From a virus, in the IMG/VR virus record IMGVR_UViG_3300031800_000007, positions 1-34,972 of that record: DNA of 34,972 nucleotides. One strand, 5' to 3'. How positions within the stretch are numbered: the stretch's first letter is position 1; every line of letters starts with the position of its first letter. The position numbers and the translations under genes are program-made. Below are positions 18,452 through 34,972 of the stretch, one piece after another. The notes below the pieces were generated by a model, which did no database searches, was not told the origin of the DNA, and worked only from the letters and a program-made list of their open reading frames with translations.

Positions 18452-19894
18452 TTACGACCGAACAGCCAGGTTAATAAAGGGGCTGAAGGTGTTGGACCCG
18501 TTCCGAGGGGTCAGCGCGGAGTCGATCCAAGGCTTACCATCCAGCCGTTCGATGAACCGCCACTCGGTTTCATCGGTATTGAACCGGGTGTGCATGGAGC
18601 TGGCTACCTCGAGGCTCTGCCGGTCACCTATGAGGTAGTAGCTCAGGTCTGTGAAGTAAATGTCGCCTGCGGCCCCGAGAGTCTGGGCCTTCTCCGTGAA
18701 GAGTACCGGGCGACCCAAGATGGTCGCAGGGGGGCCGGCTACGCCGTTGTTTATCCAGACGGCGGACCCGCCAGTCCCTACGTTCAAGGCCATGGTGGCG
18801 AGCTGGGGGAAGGTATCGTTGTGGGCTATCCATACCGCATTCCCGAGGGACATCGGCAGCATCCGGGAGTACATTTTGATTAGGTTTTCCCAAACGATGG
18901 TGGTCGCGGCCTGGCCTGTCTCTTTGGCTACCGACACCAGGGCGTCAGCATTGAGAATGCCGATGGGCTGGCCGGCGCCTACCCCGTTGATGAAAGCGTC
19001 ATCTTCAAAGTATGCGAGGGCCTGGGAGAACAAGCGATTCAGCAATGCCTCTAGAGAGATCGCGCTGTCCTTGATTAGCTCATTTGCAACGCGAGTCCCA
19101 CCCATGAGCTTTTTGGCTTCCAGCGCCACTTGGCTGAAGGTGGGCTCACTCTGGGTGAAACTGCCGGACTCGGGAGTCCAAAACGCCTGGATGCCGCCGA
19201 AGACTGTAGTCGCATGGGACGTATCCCGGATGGCGGGGATCTTTACCTTGAGGGTTGTCATGGGGATGACCATGGCACGGGGACGCACGATAGCTTGCTC
19301 TAGCGCCAAGGAGAGGAGTTGGACCCGGAACTCCTCGGGCACAAGGAAGCCGCCAGCATCGCCCTGAGACTCACCCAACACCTTGTAGTGAGCATCGGTC
19401 AGCTTATCCCATGGGGCCCGGTTACCACTGGCTAACGCCTTTTGGGTCTGCCAGTCAATCCCAATATAGTAATCGGAGATCCGCTGGAACGTGCCGTCCA
19501 TTACGGCCCCCGGCGCTTCCGGCTCGTACATGGCCAGCGCCGCCGCCTTCCGGGCCGGGGTCATCATGGAAAGAGGGTTGCCGCCTTTAAACCAGGGCAA
19601 CTCCTGCCCACCGTTGTAGGCCATCTGCCGGGCAACGCTCTGGTCCATGGGGATACGTTTGAGCTTCCCCCCAAAGCCGTTGTCATCCATAAACTCTTTC
19701 AGGCCCTCTTCCATCATCTCGCGGCCTTGAGCCAACAGATCAGGGTCTTTACTGTGGACCTCAGTCGCGTAACCCTTGACGAATTGCTTAAACCCGGCAG
19801 GGTCTTGCATGAGGGCTCTTAACTTGGTTTCATCGTTCAGCACGTCTTCCAAGTCGGCTGCATTGCCGGGAATCTTCAAAGTGATTTCAGCCAT
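18452..19894 (-). CDS. Major capsid protein, HK97 fold
   Basis: 480 residues. The N-terminal 165 or so residues are charged and helical, like the scaffolding delta domain, and are followed by the HK97 core (GDAGGFLVPEEFRVQLL, then KIPAIRDTSHATTVFGGIQ, LMGGTRVANELIKDS, FINGVGAGQPIGILN). The beta-hairpin and C-terminal regions follow the normal pattern. It overlaps the protease stop by 8 bases, with GGAGG upstream. Protease cleavage near residue 165 is expected from the HK97 paradigm. Confidence 0.95.
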   Translation of the reverse strand: MAEITLKIPGNAADLEDVLNDETKLRALMQDPAGFKQFVKGYATEVHSKDPDLLAQGREMMEEGLKEFMDDNGFGGKLKRIPMDQSVARQMAYNGGQELPWFKGGNPLSMMTPARKAAALAMYEPEAPGAVMDGTFQRISDYYIGIDWQTQKALASGNRAPWDKLTDAHYKVLGESQGDAGGFLVPEEFRVQLLSLALEQAIVRPRAMVIPMTTLKVKIPAIRDTSHATTVFGGIQAFWTPESGSFTQSEPTFSQVALEAKKLMGGTRVANELIKDSAISLEALLNRLFSQALAYFEDDAFINGVGAGQPIGILNADALVSVAKETGQAATTIVWENLIKMYSRMLPMSLGNAVWIAHNDTFPQLATMALNVGTGGSAVWINNGVAGPPATILGRPVLFTEKAQTLGAAGDIYFTDLSYYLIGDRQSLEVASSMHTRFNTDETEWRFIERLDGKPWIDSALTPRNGSNTFSPFINLAVRS

Positions 19895-20783
19895 GGGTCA
19901 GAGCCTCCTCTATTGCCTCTCGGAATATCTCGCGGTAGTTGATGGGGCTGATTGCCTTCCCGCCGTCGTGGTCATGGGAGCCGTTCCCGTCGGCGTCGTG
20001 CTCGCCATGCCCAGCCTTCAAAATCAATTTGGCTAGTTTAGTATCCCGGTCGGGGTCATCGGCGTCTACGTCCGGCTCAGGGCCGCCAGGGTGGGTGTGG
20101 AGTAGCTTGACCAATGGGGCCATAGCTTGTTCCAAGTCGTCCATCCGCAGGCCGATGTCTTTCAGGAAGGCCCGCAGCTCATCGTCATCCTGGGGGCCAG
20201 CGCCCTTATCGTCATCAATAGTGATGGTAATTAGCTTTTCCGCTATCATGTCGTCAATGAGCGGGTGAAGCCCTATCATGCGCTGCATTGCGTCCGGGTT
20301 GCTCGGGACCGATACCTGGGAAACTTCCAGGAGTTGCTGGCCGTTAAATTCAAAGTTCTGGAAGAACTCATTCTTCCCGTCAATTTCCTTGGCCTTGCTC
20401 ATATCGGGGATAAAGCCAACGCTAAATGCGGCCCCGCCATCCTTAGCGATATCAAAGGCGATGTCTGCGTTCTGCTGGCCGCGACCAATCCGGTAGGTGG
20501 CCTCCCCGATTAACTTCTTACCCTTGACTTCCATAGAATCCCACCGGCCGATCACCGCTTCCAGAGAGCCGTAGCGATGGGAATCAAGCATGACCGGGTT
20601 TTTCATAAAGTTGTCGAGATCCCATCCCGCCTGCCGGATGATGTCACCATCCCGGTCTCGCGTCTCGGTGGACACGACGGCCTCAACCCGGCCAGCCTTA
20701 CGATCAATGACCTTGACCTCGCCACGCTCAAAGAGGCGGATGACATTGGGCCGTGGGCTGTCCTTACTGCCAGTAGGGTTCAT
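19887..20783 (-). CDS. Prohead maturation protease (HK97 gp4-like, S78 family)
   Basis: 298 residues. The protease core spans about residues 20-165, with the expected His (MLDSHRYGS, His 69) and Ser (GGAAFSVGF, Ser 121) and the strand EVSQVSVPSNPDA. Residues 190-298 form an acidic, His-rich tail (HTHPGGPEPDVDADDPDRD, HGEHDADGNGSHDHDGG) that may act as scaffold or bind metal. It cleaves the capsid delta domain during prohead maturation. The next gene is the capsid, as expected. Confidence 0.9.
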   Translation of the reverse strand: MNPTGSKDSPRPNVIRLFERGEVKVIDRKAGRVEAVVSTETRDRDGDIIRQAGWDLDNFMKNPVMLDSHRYGSLEAVIGRWDSMEVKGKKLIGEATYRIGRGQQNADIAFDIAKDGGAAFSVGFIPDMSKAKEIDGKNEFFQNFEFNGQQLLEVSQVSVPSNPDAMQRMIGLHPLIDDMIAEKLITITIDDDKGAGPQDDDELRAFLKDIGLRMDDLEQAMAPLVKLLHTHPGGPEPDVDADDPDRDTKLAKLILKAGHGEHDADGNGSHDHDGGKAISPINYREIFREAIEEALTHG

Positions 20784-20789
20784 GCCTTT

Positions 20790-20900
20790 TCAATCCTGCT
20801 CACGGGCCCCACAGTATGCTTCGGGGTCACGAATGTCGTTGCTTTGAGCCCAGGCGATACACTCATCCCAAGTCATCTCACAGTTAGGACCGGTTGGCAT
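20790..20900 (-). CDS. 36-residue protein with a DPEAYCGA motif
   Basis: ATG at 20900 opens MPTGPNCEMTWDECIAWAQ, ending DPEAYCGAREQD at TGA 20790, 6 bases before the protease. A D-x-C-(I/V)-A ... D-P-E-A-Y-C-G segment recurs as a short module near prohead proteases and in head proteins of many phages, so I consider this real. Its start lies within the stop region of the gene before it. Function unknown. Confidence 0.6.
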   Translation of the reverse strand: MPTGPNCEMTWDECIAWAQSNDIRDPEAYCGAREQD

Positions 20901-21021
20901 CTGCTAGGCACCGTCTCGCTAATCTCACGCCGTTAAACAGGACCATTGGTATCCCATGCCCAGCCCATCGGGTTGCACTGTAATAACCTCTGAATAATCC
21001 AACAGCGAGGTTCAGCGGCAT
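20884..21021 (-). CDS. 45-residue protein in the head module
   Basis: ATG at 21021 overlaps the previous stop; GGGAGTG lies upstream. It encodes MPLNLAVGLFRGYYSATRW followed by AGHGIPMVLFNGVRLARRC. A longer frame reaching 21246 lies over the previous gene and has no site, so the short form is preferred. The Gly/aromatic pattern looks protein-like, but I know no family. Confidence 0.45.
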   Translation of the reverse strand: MPLNLAVGLFRGYYSATRWAGHGIPMVLFNGVRLARRCLADANRS

Positions 21022-21230
21022 ACCATCACTCCCAAGGGATTCACCTGGTGGTCGTCCCAGGGCTGTCGGCATCGGGGGCAGCGCCCGGGATCCTGATTGG
21101 AGCGCGCCGCCTTGCAGGATCGTCTTTTCGGTTTTACCGAAGGGTTGGTGCTTACCCACACAGTGTCGGTGCTGTTGGCAGTGGTGGTAGTTGCCTCGTA
21201 ATAAATCACTTCGCCAACTTGATAAAACAT
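21012..21230 (-). CDS. Small zinc-ribbon-like protein
   Basis: 72 residues, beginning MFYQVGEVIYYEATTTT. The C-terminal half has SCKAARSNQDPGRCPRCRQ and ends MVCR, giving about four Cys for a zinc site. AGAGGTGGG precedes the ATG at 21230. It is the first gene after the 229-bp intergenic region with the terminator, so its expression depends on readthrough or a nearby promoter. Confidence 0.6.
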   Translation of the reverse strand: MFYQVGEVIYYEATTTTANSTDTVWVSTNPSVKPKRRSCKAARSNQDPGRCPRCRQPWDDHQVNPLGVMVCR

Positions 21231-21243
21231 CCCACCTCTCAGG

Positions 21244-21279
21244 CAATAAAAAAGCGCGAAACCTATAAAGGCTCGCGCT
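21244..21279 (-). terminator. Rho-independent terminator between portal and capsid modules
   Basis: On the minus strand AGCGCGA (21279-21273) and TCGCGCT (21259-21253) form a 7-bp stem, with an inner CCT/AGG pairing, followed directly by six T (21253-21248) and then ATT. This is a textbook intrinsic terminator. It ends only 14 bases before the next start codon (ATG at 21230), so it stands in front of the capsid genes and may be an attenuator. Confidence 0.85.
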
Positions 21280-21332
21280 GCGTCTAGCGTCTGGCTGAGA
21301 CTCTGGAATCGGCTCTGCGTCTAGCGTCTGGC
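21278..21332 (-). repeat. 18-bp direct repeat in the intergenic region
   Basis: Two exact 18-base copies lie at 21278-21295 and 21315-21332, 37 bases apart. On the minus strand each reads GCCAGACGCTAGACGCAG and contains two GACGC units. The proximal copy abuts the terminator stem. They could bind a regulator or form part of a structured leader. Confidence 0.75.
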
Positions 21333-21423
21333 CGGTCTACTTATTCAGTTGTTAGGGCCGGCGGGATTGTTAGTTCAGACCACACAACCCCACCGGCGCA
21401 GGTGGGAACCGTGCCAAGACCAA

Positions 21424-21451
21424 AGTATCATGGCCTGAGCGCGGTTGTCAA
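21424..21451 (-). promoter_or_regulatory. Candidate promoter just after the portal gene
   Basis: A perfect -35 TTGACA (21451-21446) starts 8 bases after the portal stop. A 16-base spacer leads to GATACT (21429-21424, 4 of 6 consensus); TACTTT at an 18-base spacer is an alternative. Predicted initiation near 21418 gives a transcript of about 175 nt up to the terminator. Confidence 0.5.
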
Positions 21452-21459
21452 TTCCAAGG

Positions 21460-23700
21460 TCACAGTACCTTCTCTTGCCATTGACCGCCATGTGCACGCT
21501 CGGTAGATATGACCGCCTTGCATTTCCGACAATACATCCCTGGCCCCTGGTTATTAAGGACAAGAGAACCACCACAGAACGGGCACCGGGTAATGGAGTG
21601 GTCCGCAGCCAACTCCACCACGGGTGCCCGTCTGTATCGGACGTTGCAACGACAATTGGGGTGAGCCGGGATGGTGTCAAACCCCGAGATGAACGGGTCG
21701 CCCATTTTGATCCAGCCCTGGGCCTCAGCATCAAGGCAAGGCGTTCCGCCGCCGGTGGCGTCCACCACGTCATCCCCCTGAGTGATCCAACGTTTCTCGT
21801 TGAAGTCCTGGGCCACGGCGGCCCCCAGCGCACCCTGGCCCTGAGCGGTCGCTGTCTCGGTCCTGGCCACGGTGGTCGCTCTCTGTGGGCTAAAGGCCAG
21901 GTCATCGCGTAAGGCCCGCTGTAGCGTCTGTAGGCTGTCTCCGCGCTCTATGGTCTGAGCCACCAAAGAGTTGACCCTACTCCGCGTAGCGTTGACGATA
22001 TTCAGATCCCCGTCCACCCGTAGGAGCCGGGCGCCGCGGGTTTCTGCATACTGGGTTGCGAGGTCATCGGCCAGGAGTGGCTCCATCGGGAAGATATTAA
22101 CCATCGCCGCCTTGAACGCAGCCGCGAGTTCTTCGATTACCTCAGTCTTGTATTTGGTCCACCAGTCCCAATCGTAGGCCGCGACGTCGCCGACTTCTAT
22201 CTTAGTAATTTGGTCTAGCCATCGGTAGTCAATGAGAGCAGTCAGGCGTTCATCAACAATGGGGTCTTTAAGATTCAGGGTGCCAGCGAATTTCGCAAAC
22301 TGCTCCTCGAGAAACGCAACCAACCCCTCGGCCTCGGCCTTCAGCCGCCGGGTCCACGCTAGTTGCATGACCCGCTCGGCTATGTCTAGGGGAGTGGGGG
22401 CCTTTAACTGGGGTGCTCCCCCTTTGTCAGGGGGTATCCCATCGAATATACCCAATTGATCAGCAAGGGCTTTGCCATGATCACGCCGCTCAATATATCC
22501 GAAGTCCTTCACCCCAAGGGTGAAGGGACTCCCACCAGTAGGCTTAACTTTGTCCCCGCCTTCTATCTCGCCCAGGCCCAAGATGGCCCGACCTTCATTC
22601 AGCAGCATTAGCCCAGCTTCGTAACCCTTCGTCGCCTCTTCAAGATCCAACTCGCGGTTGTTCGGCGTCGGATCAACGAACTCAAAGTGTAGGCCTCGCT
22701 CTGGATAGAGCTTTAATAGCTTCGTGTTGAGCGACAACCGGATGCGCTCCAGGCGAGGCTTGATGGTCCACCGGGCAAAGATGAACTCGGCCGCTTGAGC
22801 ATTACTTCTACTTGGCGCTTCCATGACGCCAAGCATCGGGAGCGGAACCCCGTAGGCAGCCAAAACGAGGTCGCGTGTCTGTTGCCTCAACTGGACAAAT
22901 TGCATATCGCGTTGAGTGTATTTGCGCTCAACAAACTTGGCCCTTTCCAAGAAGCCCATACGCCCGGCGTTGGCCGTACCCTGGTGCATGGTCTTCCACC
23001 GCTCGACCAGTTTGTTAAAGTCGGTATTGCTCATGGCCCGGTCTGTTTCGATGATCCCGCCTGGTGTTGCGTCATTGCGGAAGAACGACCGATTGAAGTT
23101 CGCCGCCTCCACCTCAGAACCGAGGTCGAGAATGAGGGACTGGATCGGGCCCATGCCACGATATGGGTCAAGCGGGTTCGGGTGCCGGATGAAGATCACG
23201 TCCTCGAGATCGAAAAATATCTTCTCTGAGCCGAGAGTGTAGATATAACCTTTTATGTATTCGTCATGGTCCTTGATTGGCGCCATACGGTCAGGTCGGA
23301 CGGCCCACATCTCAACCGGGATACCACGCGCATTTCTGACCAACACCCACCACATCTCTCCTGTCAACTCAAAGTGTTGTTGGCTCATCTCCAGGAAGTC
23401 TTGGCGTGTGTCGAAGGCGTTGGCTGATTCCCAGAGCGTAAGGGCGGGATGGGTGAATATCTCTTTCGCTGTACCAGGGCCTTGGTATAGATGCCACTCG
23501 CTGGAGGCAACGGCTTCGGCTATCTTGCTTACCGCGGCGAACACCCAAGAAATGGTGGAGTAGGTGGCCATGTGGCTGAGGTTCCCACCGCCCAACCCTC
23601 CAGACGTGAAGTTGCCCGCGCCTTGGTTGATCGCCGGCGGGCGCTCCTGGTTGTGGGCCTTGCTGATTAAGCCGTCGTACAGGGCTTTAAGTAGCGTCAA
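21460..23700 (-). CDS. Portal protein fused to a Mu gpF-like domain and a zinc ribbon
   Basis: 746 residues. Residues about 40-410 are an HK97-type portal (TYSTISWVFAAVSKIAEAVAS, DVIFIRHPNPLDPYRGMGPI, AAYGVPLPMLGVM). A helical linker leads to a phage Mu gpF/SPP1 gp7-like domain ending in DTIPAHPNCRCNVRY (residues 678-685 PAHPNCRC). The last 45 residues carry CPFCGG (706) and CRKC (724), a zinc ribbon not usual in portals. Portal and MuF proteins are normally separate neighbours. A TTG start at 23700 overlaps the upstream stop by TTGA, with GAGG seven bases before it. Confidence 0.9.
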   Translation of the reverse strand: MTLLKALYDGLISKAHNQERPPAINQGAGNFTSGGLGGGNLSHMATYSTISWVFAAVSKIAEAVASSEWHLYQGPGTAKEIFTHPALTLWESANAFDTRQDFLEMSQQHFELTGEMWWVLVRNARGIPVEMWAVRPDRMAPIKDHDEYIKGYIYTLGSEKIFFDLEDVIFIRHPNPLDPYRGMGPIQSLILDLGSEVEAANFNRSFFRNDATPGGIIETDRAMSNTDFNKLVERWKTMHQGTANAGRMGFLERAKFVERKYTQRDMQFVQLRQQTRDLVLAAYGVPLPMLGVMEAPSRSNAQAAEFIFARWTIKPRLERIRLSLNTKLLKLYPERGLHFEFVDPTPNNRELDLEEATKGYEAGLMLLNEGRAILGLGEIEGGDKVKPTGGSPFTLGVKDFGYIERRDHGKALADQLGIFDGIPPDKGGAPQLKAPTPLDIAERVMQLAWTRRLKAEAEGLVAFLEEQFAKFAGTLNLKDPIVDERLTALIDYRWLDQITKIEVGDVAAYDWDWWTKYKTEVIEELAAAFKAAMVNIFPMEPLLADDLATQYAETRGARLLRVDGDLNIVNATRSRVNSLVAQTIERGDSLQTLQRALRDDLAFSPQRATTVARTETATAQGQGALGAAVAQDFNEKRWITQGDDVVDATGGGTPCLDAEAQGWIKMGDPFISGFDTIPAHPNCRCNVRYRRAPVVELAADHSITRCPFCGGSLVLNNQGPGMYCRKCKAVISTERAHGGQWQEKVL

Positions 23701-31093: not shown

Positions 31094-31903
31094 TCACATT
31101 ACTCTGCTTGATTGCTTAGCAGAAGCCCGGTATCTCCAGATCCCAGTTCGAGTGCTATTTGCATAAAAGCAAGCCTTATTATGGAAAAGTGCATATTGAG
31201 TACGCCCATGAGTTTTGGTAAAACTGGTCAGTTGTGACGGCCGACGAGAGAATTTTATGCCACATCCGTCACACACGGCCACAATCTGGCTCTTTAATTC
31301 AAGGTGAACCAAGCACCAATCTGATTGTGGCAATGATGGCTCCCCGCATAGAAGGCATGCACCTATTTCGGTTTGAAATTGACATGACCAGGCTGCTAAA
31401 CGGCCAAGGTGTTTGAACTCCGCACTCCTGAGAGCCCTGAAGGCGGCAGCCAGATACCGTCTCCGGAGTCGCATCACAAATTCGTAGGAGAAAGTATCTG
31501 GGTATATCTGTTGTAGTAGAAGACACAACTCCCCACGGGCCAAGGCCGCTCTTTTATCCGCGTGGTTATCAAGATACATAAACGGTCGGAGAAAGTGTGC
31601 TCGTGTGGGATGACGTAGTTTGCGTAAGCCTTTCATCTCTATTTGTCTTATACGCTCTCTGCTTACCCCAAACGCTACACCTACTTGGTCAAAACGCAGG
31701 CCCTCCCCTGTCCGAAGGCCGAAGTGCATCATAATGACCCGCGCTTCCCTCTCTGAGAGGGTATGAAGCGCCTGACGAATTGCCCAAATCACGGTATGTC
31801 CGTCTGGATTCTCCCAGATAAACCGGGGGCGGTCAGAGAAAGCTAGAAAGTTCTCGCCGAAAATCGCCGATAGCAGCCTTTCAGCCTGTTTTCGTTGACT
31901 CAT
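31094..31903 (-). CDS. Sigma-70 region 4 protein with C-terminal zinc motifs
   Basis: 269 residues. Residues 45-101 match sigma region 4 closely: LSEREARVIMMHFGL, then a helix-turn-helix (FDQVGVAFGVSRERIRQIEM) ending KGLRKLRHPT. Regions 1-3, including the -10-binding region 2, are absent. Residues 100-180 are helical. Then C183/C186/C197/H200 and C211/C214/H241/C245 form two zinc sites, the second treble-clef-like. It is the last gene before the terminator and may bind -35 elements or RNA polymerase to control middle or late genes. It is not a complete sigma factor. Confidence 0.8.
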   Translation of the reverse strand: MSQRKQAERLLSAIFGENFLAFSDRPRFIWENPDGHTVIWAIRQALHTLSEREARVIMMHFGLRTGEGLRFDQVGVAFGVSRERIRQIEMKGLRKLRHPTRAHFLRPFMYLDNHADKRAALARGELCLLLQQIYPDTFSYEFVMRLRRRYLAAAFRALRSAEFKHLGRLAAWSCQFQTEIGACLLCGEPSLPQSDWCLVHLELKSQIVAVCDGCGIKFSRRPSQLTSFTKTHGRTQYALFHNKACFYANSTRTGIWRYRASAKQSSRVM

Positions 31904-34798: not shown

Positions 34799-34972
34799 CT
34801 TGTTCCCCTCCGTTGATTTACTTGACATGGATAATATATCACCAAATGCAAGGGTTGTCAACACCTAGAGCAAGGAATATTTACATATTGCGAAAACCCA
34901 TTGCATCCTGTAGAATATACCCATGGTGATTGAAGAGCGAACAGTCAAGAATTTGGTGGATGCCCTGCGGGC
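34799..34972. repeat. Right copy of terminal direct repeat
   Basis: Second copy of bases 1-174. It ends inside a truncated copy of the plus-strand helix-turn-helix gene (its ATG at 34923-34925). The mismatch at 34926 changes the second codon from ATG to GTG. An exact assembly-graph overlap would carry no mismatch, so this may record real variation in the phage population or a base error at a contig end. Confidence 0.95.

Follow-up and report, generated by a model that had tools for sequence, protein, structure and literature searches.

The 229-bp gap that separates the portal gene from the protease-capsid genes of this phage (21459-21231, minus strand) is, in the reading that we favour with modest confidence, a conserved transcription attenuator that serves the protease-capsid operon as 5' leader; its behaviour as RNA we infer from its sequence. 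The source is the virus record IMGVR_UViG_3300031800_000007, and the window analysed here is that whole record of 34,972 bases. Although classed as linear, the record represents a nearly complete genome of about 34.8 kb, since its two ends (1-174 and 34799-34972) form a 174-bp direct repeat with 99.4% identity. This terminal repeat also holds a very strong minus-strand promoter (TTGACA, a 17-nt spacer and TATATT, with TG).

The late operon is encoded on the minus strand, in the order terminase large subunit, portal, gap, 72-aa ORF, 36-aa ORF, maturation protease and major capsid protein. The portal (21460-23700, minus) includes a fused head-morphogenesis domain, and its tail, CPFCGG...CRKCK, resembles a zinc ribbon. 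The first ORF past the terminator (21012-21230, minus; 72 aa) carries a CPRCRQPWDDH motif and has the SD sequence GAGAGGTGGG at 21240-21231. The 36-aa ORF, MPTGPNCEMTWDECIAWA..., sits between the leader and the protease (20790-20900, minus). Stretches resembling it open the ORF that follows the leader in two relatives, L062, where that ORF is fused to the protease, and L065. The head maturation protease (19887-20783, minus) matches PHROG families of head maturation proteases and major head proteins, while the major capsid protein (18452-19894, minus; phrog_10, 9.5e-51) is presumed to be the main product of the controlled operon. A preliminary description had placed the gap between portal and capsid; it does lie there, but the two small ORFs and the protease come before the capsid gene.

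Read along the minus strand, the gap holds TTGACA, an 18-nt spacer, TACTTT, an 18-bp hairpin, a box AACTGAATAAG, two copies of GCCAGACGCTAGACGCAG, a GC hairpin with T6, and the ATG. This arrangement of elements is far beyond chance. When the gap was shuffled 20,000 times by mononucleotides, repeats of at least 12 nt arose just 16 times, and the leader folds more strongly than its dinucleotide shuffles (z -3.1). The TTGACA mentioned in the preliminary description was confirmed on the minus strand at 21451-21446, where it begins a predicted late promoter (21422-21451, minus). Its 18-nt spacer ends in TG-A, directly before the -10 element TACTTT (21427-21422), and the resulting stretch (21430-21422) has the form of an extended -10 sigma70 promoter with a predicted transcription start near 21415 (minus). 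Nearly all relatives with a leader show the same TTGAC-spacer-TGnTAnnnT layout in their gap. Elsewhere in the genome there is only one minus-strand promoter of comparable strength, at the early end.

The 18-bp hairpin (21357-21397, minus; -28.3 kcal/mol) lies directly upstream of the box; some relatives have a tRNA instead, and others have neither. The CCCACC/GGTGGG hairpin described earlier exists (-10.2 kcal/mol), but its GGTGGG pairs far better with CCCGCC inside the 18-bp hairpin. The box itself (21340-21350, minus; consensus AACTGAATAG) was recognised from the alignment of relatives and from a covariance model match. Next comes hairpin P1 (21310-21334, minus; CGGC-CAG-A-CG-CTAGA-CG-CAG-A-GCCG, -5.1 kcal/mol), which likewise falls in the model match and shows covariation in relatives. 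By eye, P1 can be read as a C-N.N-G motif, with staggered single bulges, set between an outer and an inner stem and topped by a CTAGA-type loop, and it recurs among the leaders with different bases in its arms. The exact 18-bp direct repeat that had been noted before was found at 21332-21315 and 21295-21278 (minus), 37 nt apart, and both copies match the P1 motif. The first copy is contained in P1 and the second in a P1-like hairpin, CTC(A)GC-CAG-A-CG-CTAGA-CG-CAG-C-GCGAG (21272-21299, minus), which we propose as a candidate antiterminator by analogy with a hairpin, P2, of relatives.

The intrinsic terminator, GCGCGAGCC-TTTATA-GGTTTCGCGC followed by T6 (21248-21278, minus), forms a hairpin of -14.0 kcal/mol whose arms covary in relatives. 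It is a good terminator rather than the perfect one first claimed, as it has one bulged U, and it is missing from the list of a generic terminator scan, presumably because the rules of the scan forbid a bulge. The distance of 14 bases to the next start codon holds when counted from TTTTTTATT, with the ATG at 21230 lying 17 nt past T6. The leader thus has an intrinsic terminator ahead of the controlled gene, as an attenuator does. The preliminary description reasoned that the capsid genes would need antitermination or a separate start. The latter is hard to fit in, as too few bases separate the terminator from the gene to hold another promoter, and the protease-capsid operon would therefore need read-through.

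The sequence GCGAG serves both as the 3' arm of the second hairpin and as the 5' arm of the terminator, so that the two structures are mutually exclusive. In the window the antiterminator pairing is weak on its own, at -2.5 kcal/mol versus -14.0 kcal/mol for the terminator. Most relatives carry at this site P2, a short hairpin of the form GGCN-loop-NGCC, and here too the 3' arm of the hairpin doubles as the terminator's 5' arm. P2 was 83.9% paired and scored 0.193 versus 0.136 +/- 0.022 for shuffled controls, 4 of 500 shuffles reaching its score; a single-sequence shuffle test was weak (Fisher p 0.02). Its fourth pair is U-A in 11 leaders, C-G in 9 and G-C in 1, with 13 unpaired cells, changes that are suggestive of P2 but not proof of it. 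The candidate antiterminator hairpin that overlaps the terminator is thus supported no more than moderately.

A covariance search across related phages, named in the preliminary description as a check, was run with a model built from 14 leaders, which excluded the window and were aligned by sequence alone. The sole match of the model within the window was at 21350-21247 (minus; E=1.5e-4). Across 90 loci it gave 43 matches, nearly all of them in portal-protease gaps, and none in the terrestrial loci of that set. A whole-record search with the model (R1) returned neither the window nor G005 and G006, probably owing to the looseness of its first look, whereas the direct search of the window did return it. 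In the unfitted alignment the pairs of P1 and the terminator covary, with a score of 0.361 compared to 0.185 for shuffled and at most 0.124 for slid controls, the slid control being somewhat flattering since the structure was read from those same sequences. In the fitted alignment 92.5% of cells pair, two-sided changes occur in 21 of 22 pairs, and the score is 0.454 versus at most 0.063 when slid; because fitting inflates this score, the unfitted count is the one that matters. This covariation strongly supports the view that the leader is a real, conserved, covarying structured RNA. Rfam scans of the window and relatives matched no family other than tRNA, in four leaders, and thus no T-box or known riboswitch model. 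Judged from these alignments and scans, the leader RNA, whose expression is predicted, forms a new family within a type of regulation that is already known.

Portal and capsid served as queries to collect relatives, most of which are genome fragments; the protease protein used alone as query retrieved none. About forty related phages share the arrangement, and in 38 non-redundant cases (window included) the gap from portal to protease likewise holds a promoter, a leader of 70-270 nt and a T-tract hairpin. Under a strict rule, promoter and terminator occurred together in 17 of these 38 regions; the same rule was passed by 3 of 1,140 shuffles from a first-order Markov model and by one of 50 relatives that were leaderless or terrestrial. 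From the end of the T tract to the start codon behind it, usually that of the protease, the distance is 1-29 nt in 39 of 40 leaders and 66 nt in L050. Among the matches listed by a DNA pattern scan for box and P2 in all viral contigs, those with a promoter and a terminator were all elements of this kind. Going by contig names, the leader-bearing relatives are apparently mostly marine. The element is absent from actinobacterial prophages and from Streptomyces phage Dagobah, in which the portal and protease genes overlap, although these have the capsid in common with the window. The leader instead co-occurs with one type of protease: capsid and portal are also common to leaderless phages, and three of these that were compared (G011-G013) share both, while their protease is not recognisable. 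That the leader is tied to one protease type argues for control in cis.

These observations bear on whether the gap is an independent sRNA gene, the other option offered at the outset. The product would then be a stable RNA, about 168 nt long here and about 72 nt in compact forms, which lack P1; with the box as seed it would act in trans on targets in host or phage, and capsid would be made by leakage or from upstream transcription. The element does have its own promoter and terminator, the terminator loop ACCGGA is conserved, and in many relatives the box either opens the predicted RNA or lies just behind a tRNA, so that tRNA processing would leave it exposed. Nonetheless, with the one exception given above the leader always precedes the same kind of gene at close range, its link to one protease is not what a trans-acting RNA would call for, and a hairpin overlapping the terminator is unexpected for a plain sRNA. 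The complement of the box is not enriched in the phage's own mRNA, and a role for the box as a trans seed there was rejected on that basis. We consider an sRNA gene rather unlikely. A structured RNA with its own promoter stands from the earlier proposal, and conservation in cis together with the terminator-overlapping hairpin favours an attenuator over an independent sRNA.

The 5' end of the leader is variable. The box lies at the predicted RNA start in about 15 leaders and at +60 to +140 in others. A hairpin directly precedes it in the window, L006, L050, L051 and L056, while a tRNA above the Rfam threshold, with a CAU anticodon by eye, lies between the late promoter and the box in L065 (766-837), L086 (4016-4086), L098 (4028-4100) and L179 (3041-3113). 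In L065 and L086 the T loop of the tRNA, UGCAACU, is unusual. Since the box occurs at varying distances, at the RNA start or after a hairpin or tRNA, the conserved unit comprises box, P1, P2 and terminator rather than a distance from the promoter. The tRNAs and strong 5' hairpins could also mean that the leader is an mRNA 5' element serving processing, stability or translation, in which a leaky terminator sets dosage and there is no switch. Interrupted T tracts in several relatives would fit such leakiness. However, a strong hairpin with a T tract is retained in 38 of 38 leaders and P2 overlaps it, neither of which stability alone would need, and we regard this explanation as unlikely.

The layout has a precedent in lambda pR'-tR', where a promoter yields a short terminated RNA ahead of the late genes (PMC6606751, PMC7171158). 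As in the pR'-tR'-Q systems of lambda and 21, a strong sigma70 promoter here precedes a short terminated RNA, with late genes past the terminator. In a system of that sort a protein would load at promoter DNA and render polymerase insensitive to the terminator, the RNA hairpins being secondary. A 269-aa protein of the window (31094-31903, minus) could be proposed for this role: it contains a genuine sigma-70 region 4 (PF04545, 1.4e-15) with no other sigma regions recognised, and the H3-H6 fold of 21Q resembles sigma region 4 (PMC6606751). This protein is possibly a phage transcription regulator. It was not found in the leader-bearing relatives searched, and was rejected as a universal partner of the leader for that reason. 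Moreover, searches for the Q families PF06530, PF03589 and PF06323 (Q82; a search that had no working control) gave no match in the window or in four relatives, which are fragments, so no Q21 or lambda Q gene was found. In contrast to lambda and 21, the element lies inside the head operon, from portal to protease, its signal is conserved as RNA hairpins, and no fixed-place pause element is evident: the box is not fixed near +1 and resembles TATAAT poorly, and no conserved repeat was seen in the promoter spacer. We regard a lambdoid Q system as very improbable.

The attenuator reading that we favour also has parallels among RNA-based systems. Lambda N/nut, with its boxA and boxB, likewise has a conserved single-stranded box and, after it, a hairpin whose pentaloop is conserved, both ahead of a terminator. 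In contrast to nut, the hairpin here overlaps the terminator and contains an internal C-N.N-G motif, and the sequences of box and P1 are presumably unlike boxA and boxB. An N-like protein was not recognised, though N proteins are short and diverse. The HK022 put and EAR (epsC) RNAs are likewise structured leader RNAs proposed to carry polymerase past a terminator, but the leader has no Rfam match and differs in anatomy from EAR and, we assume, from put. In the compact leaders of L254 and L111, the segments AGCC, GGCT, AGCCC and GGGCT permit 1:2, 2:3 or 3:4 pairing, as in trp-type attenuators. Most compact leaders, though, lack a plausible leader-peptide ORF, and leader-peptide attenuation was rejected on this ground. 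A NusG domain, as expected for the LoaP protein of EAR antitermination, was absent from the window and four relatives in a search whose control worked, and no convincing non-structural gene was common to all leader-bearing genomes, most of which are fragments.

In the mechanism that we propose, a strong host-type sigma70 promoter would start an RNA of about 168 nt carrying the box (AACUGAAUAG), P1 and a second hairpin that shares an arm with the terminator. By default, polymerase would halt 17 nt ahead of the first start codon. A factor acting on the box and hairpins, or the second hairpin replacing the terminator, would allow read-through and with it bulk production of protease and capsid. 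The switch would operate as lambda pR'-tR' does, except that conserved RNA structure would carry the signal, in the manner of nut-type or put-type antitermination. The role of the factor may fall to a host protein, to a structural protein or to the RNA itself. What the sequences show directly is the parts and how well they are conserved, the covariation in P1 and in the terminator, and the location in cis; from these we infer transcription, termination and read-through. We put forward more tentatively, as the lesser chance, that this is an undescribed phage antitermination system, in which a portable RNA signal (box, P1 and P2) travels with the maturation protease and passes the terminator alone or through an unrecognised protein, the tRNA or hairpin being an interchangeable 5' part. 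The literature searched, of partial coverage, held no description of such an arrangement.

The arrangement probably represents a switch of a new kind that turns shell production on and off. A single, strongly covarying RNA here marks a control point in the timing of head genes across a whole group of uncultivated phages. If confirmed, the leader would add an RNA family and perhaps a new mechanism of antitermination, and its covariance model could serve to locate and annotate the late promoters of phages from metagenomes.
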